From the NCBI GenBank assembly GCA_001784155.1, contig MFPL01000007.1:103896-162369 (forward strand): 58,474 nt of DNA, in the 5' to 3' direction. A model generated the notes under the pieces. It was given only the letters and a program-made list of their open reading frames with translations, was not told the DNA's origin and did not search any database. The DNA is from Candidatus Levybacteria bacterium RIFCSPLOWO2_12_FULL_41_12. Lineage in GTDB: Bacteria > Patescibacteriota > Microgenomatia > Levybacterales > UBA12049. The position numbers and the translations under genes were made by a program. Shown one piece after another: positions 3,910-51,099 of this stretch (positions within the stretch are counted from its first letter, which is position 1; each line of letters opens with the position of its first letter).

Positions 3910-5133
3910 ATGGGCTACAGAACTGATGTTTTTAAAGGAATCTCCTGGATGGGACTCCTGAGGGGATCTACTCGAGCTATCACATTTGTAAGGCTTGCTA
4001 TTCTTGCCCGTATCCTAACGCCTGCACAATTTGGAGTATTTGGAATAGCAAGTCTTATGCTCTCATTCCTGGAGATAATAACCGAAACGGGAATTAATAT
4101 ATTTCTCATTCAAGAAAAACGAGACATAAAGGAATATATAAATTCAGCATGGATGGTCTCAATCTTGAGGGGGATTCTTATTTCAATACTCTTATTCGGA
4201 TTAGCTCCTTTTATCGTAGATTTCTTTAATTCTCCCGAGTCAGAGCGAGTAATATATATTATTGCGTTTGTTCCTTTGATAAGAGGCTTTATAAACCCGT
4301 CCATTATTTATATACAAAAGGAGATACAGTTCCATAAAGAATTTTATTTAAGATTTATCCTTTTTGCAGTGGATGCCTCAGTTGCAGTATTCGTAGCTTT
4401 TGTAACACGAAGCGCAGAAAGTTTTGCATACGGGCTTATAGCATCCGCTTTTTTAGAAGTAATTTTATCTTTCGCATTCTTTAAGCCTCGTCCCAAGCTA
4501 TTCTTCGAATTAGATAAAATGAAATACATAGTAAGCAGGGGTTGGTGGGTAACTCTTACAGGGATGTTCGCATATTTGTCTGATAACGGAGACAATCTCG
4601 CAGTTGGAAAAATTATGGGATCAAGCTCGCTAGGGTTATATCAAGTGGCATACAAGCTATCAACGCTTCCCATAACTGAAGTTACAGACGTGGTAAACAA
4701 GGTCGTTTTCCCCGTGTACTCAAAGTTCTCCGATGATAGAGGCCGTTTGTTACGTGCTTTCTCGAAGGTAACACTGTTATCTTCATTGGTAGCCTCAGCT
4801 GTTGGTATTTTTATATTTGTTTTTGCAGAAAATATAACTTTAATTATTCTAGGCAAAGAATGGTTAGGTGCAGTGCCGGCCATTAGAATTCTTAGCTTTT
4901 ACGGTATACTTCGTACTGTTTTTGGGAATTTTGCTCCTCTTTTTCTGTCTCTCGGTAGACAAGACTACGTAGCCAAGATGACGCTCTTCAGGGTTGCAGC
5001 GCTTGCACTTACAATAGTTCCTCTTACCACCGCTTATGGTTTGGCGGGAGCCGGACTTTCTGCCTTAATCTCAATTGCAGTCGAAATGCCTATAGCCCTA
5101 TTTCTATTCCGTAGATTATTTAGAAAACAATGA
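3910..5133 (+). CDS. Lipopolysaccharide/oligosaccharide flippase (Wzx/MOP superfamily)
   Basis: Polytopic ORF with MOP-like 'LAILARILTPAQFGVFGIA' N-terminus. Confidence 0.85.
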   Translation: MGYRTDVFKGISWMGLLRGSTRAITFVRLAILARILTPAQFGVFGIASLMLSFLEIITETGINIFLIQEKRDIKEYINSAWMVSILRGILISILLFGLAPFIVDFFNSPESERVIYIIAFVPLIRGFINPSIIYIQKEIQFHKEFYLRFILFAVDASVAVFVAFVTRSAESFAYGLIASAFLEVILSFAFFKPRPKLFFELDKMKYIVSRGWWVTLTGMFAYLSDNGDNLAVGKIMGSSSLGLYQVAYKLSTLPITEVTDVVNKVVFPVYSKFSDDRGRLLRAFSKVTLLSSLVASAVGIFIFVFAENITLIILGKEWLGAVPAIRILSFYGILRTVFGNFAPLFLSLGRQDYVAKMTLFRVAALALTIVPLTTAYGLAGAGLSALISIAVEMPIALFLFRRLFRKQ

Positions 5134-49750: not shown

Positions 49751-49837
49751 ATTTAGCGTCTTTAAACAGAAAGAGGACTGTCTATAGCCCTTCTTTAACT
49801 AACATTATATCACAGCTAATCAAACGGCTTAGACCGC

Positions 49838-49913
49838 AAAAAAACCCCTTGCGGGGTCTTTTCGTGAAAAACTATTGCTAGTTCTTCTACCTTCATAATT
49901 TCTTATGATGGTA
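49838..49913 (-). ncRNA. Candidate small RNA A
   Basis: Minus strand: TTGACT-N17-TATTAT promoter (49920-49948), hairpins TCATAA-GAAA-TTATGA, AACTA-GCAA-TAGTT, terminator ACCCC-GCAA-GGGGT + T7. Confidence 0.65.
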
Positions 49914-49919
49914 ATATAC

Positions 49920-49948
49920 ATAATACATTTCAGAAGTAGCCCAGTCAA
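49920..49948 (-). promoter_or_regulatory. Promoter of candidate sRNA A
   Basis: TTGACT-N17-TATTAT; upstream direct repeat TTGCTAT-gtt-TTGCTAT. Confidence 0.7.
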
Positions 49949-50043
49949 TAGGATTAAATATAGCAAAACATAGCAATTTTAAGAAAGCTTATTACAAAAC
50001 ATCCTATCTTGACAGATTCTTTCCGAAGTGGAATGCTTATAGT

Positions 50044-50676
50044 ATGAACGGTAGTGTAAAAAACAGCATCTTTAAGGAAGAGTCTCAATTCGAACATGAG
50101 ATTCAGAGAAGCAGAAAAGTCATAAAAAGTTTTAAGGCAAAAGCAGATAGGGGAAGATCTCTAAGCGAGAAATTTGCCGACCAAATGACTTCCACATTCG
50201 GAACAGTTTTTTTCCTAAGCTTAAACATGGTTCTATTTACTTTGTGGATACTAATAAATATCGGTCAATTCCCTGAAATCAAACCTTTTGACCCATTTCC
50301 CTTTAGCCTTCTTACGATGATCGTGTCTCTTCAGGCAATTGCACTTGCAATCATTGTACTTATTTCACAAAACAGAACAGGGAAAGTAGATGAGCTTAGG
50401 GAAGAAATTGACTACCAGCTGGGTATTATTGCCGAGCAGGAAGTTACAAAGCTTCTATATATAGTAGCGAAAATTGCCGAGAAGAACGGAATTGATTTAT
50501 CAAAGGACATAGTGCTTCAGGAAATGCTTAGACCTACGAATACGGATACCATAGGAAAAAGTCTTGAGAGACAAATCGAAAAGTACGACTCATCGATAAT
50601 TCCACTAAAGCAAACTTTATCCAAGGTTCTTAATAAAGAAATCCTTAATAAAGAGATCAATCTTCCCTCACTCTAG
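50044..50676 (+). CDS. DUF1003 membrane protein
   Basis: Two TMs and 'FAD.MTSTFGTVFFLSLNMVLFTLWILIN...QAIALAIIVLISQNRTGKVD'. Confidence 0.88.
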   Translation: MNGSVKNSIFKEESQFEHEIQRSRKVIKSFKAKADRGRSLSEKFADQMTSTFGTVFFLSLNMVLFTLWILINIGQFPEIKPFDPFPFSLLTMIVSLQAIALAIIVLISQNRTGKVDELREEIDYQLGIIAEQEVTKLLYIVAKIAEKNGIDLSKDIVLQEMLRPTNTDTIGKSLERQIEKYDSSIIPLKQTLSKVLNKEILNKEINLPSL

Positions 50677-50700
50677 CAAGAACCCTAAAAAATAAGCCGC

Positions 50701-50781
50701 AAAAAAACCCCTTGCGGGGTCTTTTCGGGGCAACTTTCTTGCGAAAGTCTCCTGCCTTTTTCTACTTGCGTATCGAAGGTA
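50701..50781 (-). ncRNA. Candidate small RNA B (paralogue of A)
   Basis: Minus strand: TTGACA-N18-TATGAT promoter, hairpins TAC-GCAA-GTA, ACTTTC-GCAA-GAAAGT, terminator ACCCC-GCAA-GGGGT + T7. Confidence 0.65.
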
Positions 50782-50787
50782 AAAATC

Positions 50788-50817
50788 ATCATACAGTTTT
50801 GTACTACACTCTGTCAA
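50788..50817 (-). promoter_or_regulatory. Promoter of candidate sRNA B
   Basis: TTGACA-N18-TATGAT; upstream TTGCTAT-agt-TTGC box. Confidence 0.7.
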
Positions 50818-50853
50818 TAGGGCAAAATGGCGCAAACTATAGCAAATTTGGGG

Positions 50854-51099
50854 TTAGGCGTTCACTGGAAAAAAATCTCTAATTCTTGCCAGAGTTATCC
50901 TACCTATTCCCTGTGTTCTTCCGGCGCTTCTTACAGATGTCATAATTTGTCCGTCAGTCATGGCTCTAAGATCGTCTACCTGAGCTAATCTTGCATCCCT
51001 TATAGCCCAACCAATATTATTTCGGGCTCGAGCAGGAAGAGCGCCCGGAATAGATCTTTCAATTTCCAATGGTGTTTTATTGTGCCTTTCTACTTCCAT
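50854..51099 (-). CDS. Small HhH protein resembling RNA polymerase alpha C-terminal domain
   Basis: ARNNIGWA...LAQVDDLRAMTDGQIMT...GIGRITLARIRDFF resembles alpha-CTD pattern. Confidence 0.5.
   Translation of the reverse strand: MEVERHNKTPLEIERSIPGALPARARNNIGWAIRDARLAQVDDLRAMTDGQIMTSVRSAGRTQGIGRITLARIRDFFPVNA

Follow-up and report, generated by a model that had tools for sequence, protein, structure and literature searches.

A family of small RNAs with GNRA-capped hairpins and a conserved upstream box in Microgenomatia

Two Minus-Strand RNA Loci in a Levybacteria Genome

The window, the whole 58,474-nt stretch of Candidatus Levybacteria DNA analyzed here, carries two minus-strand loci, A and B, each with a promoter-like site, a predicted three-hairpin RNA and an intrinsic terminator. 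RNA A (type A, 49838..49912) and RNA B (type B, 50701..50781) are predicted to be about 75 and 81 nt long, respectively, where the 5' ends were estimated from the -10 positions. The promoter of A (49920..49948) combines a -35 hexamer TTGACT (49948-49943), a 17-nt spacer and a -10 hexamer TATTAT (49925-49920), and that of B (50788..50817) combines TTGACA (50817-50812), an 18-nt spacer and TATGAT (50793-50788). An earlier note on this DNA had proposed these promoters, and they were the two best minus-strand matches in the promoter scan of the region. We also reproduced the gap-free alignment of the 38-nt upstream blocks (28/38 identical). The 24-bp boxes of A (TTAAAATTGCTATGTTTTGCTATA, 49959..49982, minus strand) and B (CCAAATTTGCTATAGTTTGCGCCA, 50828..50851, minus strand) scored 23.4 and 23.6 bits in a scan of the window, while the next best site reached 14.8 bits and shuffled maxima were 11-13.5; within the window, the box is confined to A and B. 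Both terminators (A, 49837..49864, with its U7 tract at 49838-49844; B, 50700..50727, with its U7 tract at 50701-50707; both minus strand) have a 12-pair stem, a GCAA loop and a U7 tract.

The sequence, strand and hairpins of the twin loci were confirmed as previously described, but the stems are longer than had been written. Hairpin 1 of A is UACC-A-UCAUAA-GAAA-UUAUGA-A-GGUA with an outer UACC/GGUA helix, hairpin 2 is a 9-bp stem, GAAGAACUA-GCAA-UAGUUUUUC, and the terminator hairpin is CGAAAAGACCCC-GCAA-GGGGUUUUUUUG. In B, hairpin 1 (CCUU..UAC-GCAA-GUA..AAGG) has an outer CCUU/AAGG helix and is followed by a CA linker, and hairpin 2 (GG-A-GACUUUC-GCAA-GAAAGUU-G-CC) has a GG/CC base and is followed by the terminator hairpin. 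The 12-nt spacer that the earlier note had placed between hairpins 2 and 3 is indeed of equal length in A and B, but part of it (GAAAAG) belongs to the terminator stem, as its 5' arm, and pairs with the U-tract. Folding energies were well below those of shuffled sequences (z=-7.8 for A and -3.7 for B), and none of 200 shuffles was as good.

When RNA B was searched against the whole 853-kb genome, A was recovered at E=3.8e-11 and no third real copy was found; A and B are paralogues and the only two copies in this genome. Copy B lies 3' of a mechanosensitive-channel gene and tRNA-Glu, and since several relatives share this setting, the ancestral site is probably the one occupied by B, with A as an additional copy. 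A DUF1003 gene (PF06210, 50044..50676, plus strand) does sit between A and B as had been remarked; it is, however, an incidental neighbor, and tblastn found no DUF1003 homologue adjoining any other RNA copy examined. On the other side of B, an 81-aa ORF with no Pfam or NCBIfam match (50854-51099, minus strand) terminates a few bases upstream of the box.

Family Members and Their Distribution

In a DNA search, 25 of 119 genomes had matches, and these extended to other genera and to a second family within the order; a few of the matches were plain terminators. A covariance model built from form B (R1) matched strongly in about 22 of 73 Levybacteria-family genomes and also picked up form A, and diverged relatives lie elsewhere in the class. 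The alignment splits these RNAs into two forms, to which the window's A and B belong, respectively. Form B runs from hairpin 1 through GGCAGGA, hairpin 2 and CCCCGAAAA to the terminator, and in form A, hairpin 2 is longer and is built around CUAGCAAUAG.

A second covariance model (R2), applied to 384 class genomes, revealed two further layouts, which co-occur in several genomes. Type II (families f5 and f29) is form-A-like and mostly lacks the box, and type III (family f5) consists of GNRA hairpins, of which an outer stem often encloses one to four, with UUCUC(U/G)AA and the terminator in its 3' part and usually the same box upstream. Promoter and hairpins, plus the box in the case of type III, were the basis for assigning both types, which are likely homologous to type I. 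In a phylum-wide search, the matches outside the class were gene-end terminators only; an R2 score near 40 bits is therefore no proof of membership by itself, and members of types II and III were accepted on R2 score plus promoter, hairpins or box. As judged by these models, the family is restricted to Microgenomatia among the genomes searched. A loose DNA pattern run over all genomes returned mostly chance matches, from which the model singled out three named Candidatus Levybacteria records, and it yielded no family member in viral contigs. One type-II RNA, at L085:1559-1642 in a genome of the Levybacteria family (G003), closely resembles those of f5 and precedes a gene of the same kind as at L086, which suggests segment transfer or shared ancestry.

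The earlier note had recognized no Rfam family here, and this held in a scan of Rfam release 15, where A, B and their relatives matched nothing at gathering score and no weak match was meaningful at E<=10 (A and B) or E<=1 (20 relatives). The best weak matches, MIR390 and Thr_leader (E ~0.5), were judged to be chance. A limited literature search found no earlier description of such a regulatory RNA in Patescibacteria. Going by the models and alignments, A and B belong to a real, previously uncatalogued RNA family.

Conserved Structure of the RNAs

In the alignment fitted to the model (n=25), 96.8% of cells were paired and double changes occurred in 19 of 26 pairs, which none of 500 shuffles reached. 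Considering that a fitted alignment leans towards its model, we repeated the count on a plain, structure-free MAFFT alignment of the 16 form-B sequences; 95.6% of cells were paired, 13 of 26 pairs showed double changes and again none of 500 shuffles was as high, where the shuffles ignore the relatedness of the sequences. Sliding the partners along this alignment left only 39-64% paired, and RNAalifold, to which no structure was supplied, recovered essentially the same fold. The covariation-like pairing noticed between A and B is thus supported by homologues with compensatory changes in many genera, and we take the RNA structure to be under selection.

In single-sequence folding, which may overstate pairing, the longest unpaired run outside the loops was 1-5 nt in all 25 type-I RNAs. 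The hairpins, capped by GNRA loops, are predicted to form a compact rod with hardly any unpaired linker. GGCAGGA and CCCCGAAAA are nearly invariant among the 16 type-B RNAs while the stems vary, and the near-invariance of GGCAGGA makes sequence-specific recognition or pairing possible. The RNAs could accordingly be antisense regulators, with these two type-B linkers as seeds for pairing with mRNA. In the consensus structure, however, both linkers are mostly paired: the GG of GGCAGGA pairs with CC in hairpin 1 and at the base of hairpin 2, GAAAA pairs with the U-tract, and roughly CA and C are left free. Runs of at most 5 nt in type I also fall short of a seed of ~7 nt, and neither linker is kept in types A, II and III. 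Furthermore, Hfq (PF17209) and ProQ (PF04352) were absent in 20 of 20 genomes. The mRNA of a neighboring glycosidase, tried as a pairing target, was unsupported, since duplexes predicted with its start region (z -1.4 to +0.1) were no better than those of shuffles. With the molecule nearly all paired and both chaperones missing, we consider antisense action unlikely.

GNRA Loops

GNRA loops cap 160 of 165 hairpins overall, though stem sequence and hairpin number vary. All 55 terminal hairpins have such a cap, as do 48 of 50 inner hairpins in type I, 32 of 32 in type II and 25 of 28 in type III (105/110 in total), where the loops are GCAA, GUAA, GAAA or GCGA. The exceptions are a UUCG loop in one hairpin of L055 and a few non-GNRA loops in L025, L084 and L094; for some caps, stability may thus be the only criterion. 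Among control terminators beside the glycosidase gene in 40 class genomes, none of 19 had a GNRA loop and one had a 4-nt loop, not GNRA, in what is a small sample under a strict terminator criterion. Because the models favor GCAA terminators and the control is small and strict, the inner hairpins provide the fairest contrast, which is still large. In type III, the number of inner hairpins ranges from one to four, and loop type, box and terminator persist while the sequence does not.

GNRA loops are classic tertiary-contact elements. As the most conserved feature of the family, they would fit a regulated RNA that docks them into receptors in the ribosome or another large RNA instead of a protein, but the hairpin number differs between types; we regard such docking as rather improbable.

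Promoter and Upstream Box

Although the covariance models were built from the RNA body only, type-I copies have a TTGACA-like hexamer, a 17-18-nt spacer and a -10 element upstream; in L054, the promoter pair from the scan is poorly placed. The 24-bp box (consensus TTAATATTGCTATATTTTGATATA) lies ~34 bp before the -35 hexamer. Its start is at -34/-35 in most copies, nearer (~-24) in L024, L029 and L073 and farther (-45) in L008, and these displacements equal one helical turn, which a bound activator would allow. The Levybacteria RNAs share the box with type-III RNAs from a different family in the class, and with a looser box pattern in 20 genomes, the top site was in many cases the one preceding the RNA. 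It holds a direct repeat, TTGNTAT..TTTGATATA, with a 10-bp period before the -35 hexamer, similar to OmpR/PhoB sites. As a general explanation, an OmpR/PhoB site was rejected because two box-bearing genomes, G007 and G033 (97-98% complete), lack any PF00486 (Trans_reg_C) hit at E<=1e-5. From its placement, we infer that the box binds an activator.

The dedicated box and promoter also bear on the possibility that no functional RNA is made and that a strong regulated promoter and hairpin-rich, terminator-like DNA insulate neighboring genes. In its favor, the layout of the terminators is bidirectional, a convergent gene often shares them, and the distribution is patchy (~22/73 genomes). Against it speak that box and promoter as well as the compensatory changes seen in the first two hairpins, which termination does not require, and we find the proposal very improbable.

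A related direct repeat (TTGATATAGTTTGATATA, then TATAGGA) precedes long ORF-free stretches at L266:1501-1560 and L260:1501-1570, in one genome of the window's family (Levybacteria) and one of f5, and similar repeats occur in G064, G256 and G232. Near the glycosidase gene, L291 (reverse complement position 4729) and L294 (position 4068) have boxes of 20.2 and 27.4 bits with no recognizable family RNA behind; these are possibly decayed copies of the locus.

Neighboring Genes

The RNAs of form B and type III are usually found within ~2 kb of a gene for a secreted glycosidase (L013:1613-2764, L023:1692-2843 and L081:321-1454), which has the clan GH-A catalytic pattern with NEPN/NEVN and ETGW motifs, a weak PslG match and no match to a Pfam or NCBIfam model. 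The gene was present in 312 of 384 class genomes, and the glycosidase is a near-core protein of the class without a family model. Where RNA and gene were on one contig, they were at most 3.5 kb apart in 24 of 29 listed genomes. In the window's genome, the gene is on a different contig from A and B, and in 20 Levybacteria without a convincing RNA copy, its flanks had neither an RNA nor a strong box. The linkage looks like co-inheritance of a shared locus, and a functional link is putative. At L029:1333-1444 (minus strand, genome G050), the stretch separating the small RNA from the glycosidase gene contains a TPP riboswitch (63.8 bits).

In L013, L023 and L055, the glycosidase gene is on the RNA's strand and begins 29-61 nt beyond the terminator, an arrangement that a cis-acting leader or attenuator with a conditional terminator governing the downstream gene would show. 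Against this, the gene beyond B in the window is convergent, several relatives have a convergent obg-like gene only 4 nt away, and different copies are followed by different genes. We consider control in cis very improbable.

Proposed Function and Comparison with Known Systems

Computation established the RNA family with its structure, its promoter-like sites, box and terminator, and we further infer that A and B are transcribed and that their partner is a protein. Each RNA would be transcribed alone from a sigma-70-type promoter, controlled through the 24-bp direct-repeat box on a fixed helix face, and would stop at its own terminator. It would then act in trans by presenting its GNRA-capped hairpins to a protein instead of base pairing with mRNA, serving as a decoy or allosteric partner much as CsrB/RsmZ do, though for a different protein. 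In CsrB-like protein-titrating RNAs, the sequence drifts while the hairpin loop motif, activator site and terminator stay. As the same holds here for caps, box and terminator, we prefer a regulated hairpin-array RNA acting through a protein partner over an antisense RNA, and we give this reading about an even chance. CsrA (PF02599) was absent in 20 of 20 genomes and was detected in 3 control genomes. A Microgenomatia-specific system, in which box-controlled RNAs titrate a protein that reads GNRA hairpins and fills the role of CsrA, Hfq and ProQ, is a tentative and rather unlikely extension.

Patescibacteria have tiny genomes and are mostly uncultured. The 20 genomes tested lack the usual RNA chaperones, and a box-controlled, covarying RNA family spans several families of one class; its covariance model, promoter motif and loop motif provide an entry point to the regulator and the RNA-binding partner.

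Among known systems, type III toxin-antitoxin RNAs (ToxI) are likewise small structured RNAs with a terminator, but the RNAs here contain no sequence unit repeated in direct orientation, and the gene that follows is often convergent. No toxin gene was seen directly behind the RNA; the neighbors are obg-like, glycosidase, DUF1003 or unrelated genes. With Hfq- and ProQ-dependent trans-encoded sRNAs, the family shares an intergenic position and its own predicted promoter and terminator, whereas both chaperones are missing from the 20 genomes and a single-stranded seed is missing from the RNAs. In comparison with CsrB/CsrC and RsmX/Y/Z of gammaproteobacteria, the loops are GNRA (105/110 inner hairpins) and not GGA-bearing, CsrA is missing from the same 20 genomes and the RNAs are shorter (~60-170 nt, mostly 75-85). 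The predicted transcripts resemble those RNAs in being free-standing, with repeated hairpins of drifting number and sequence, and, as in CsrB/RsmZ, a putative regulator site lies upstream at a set promoter distance (-34/-35 or one turn off).
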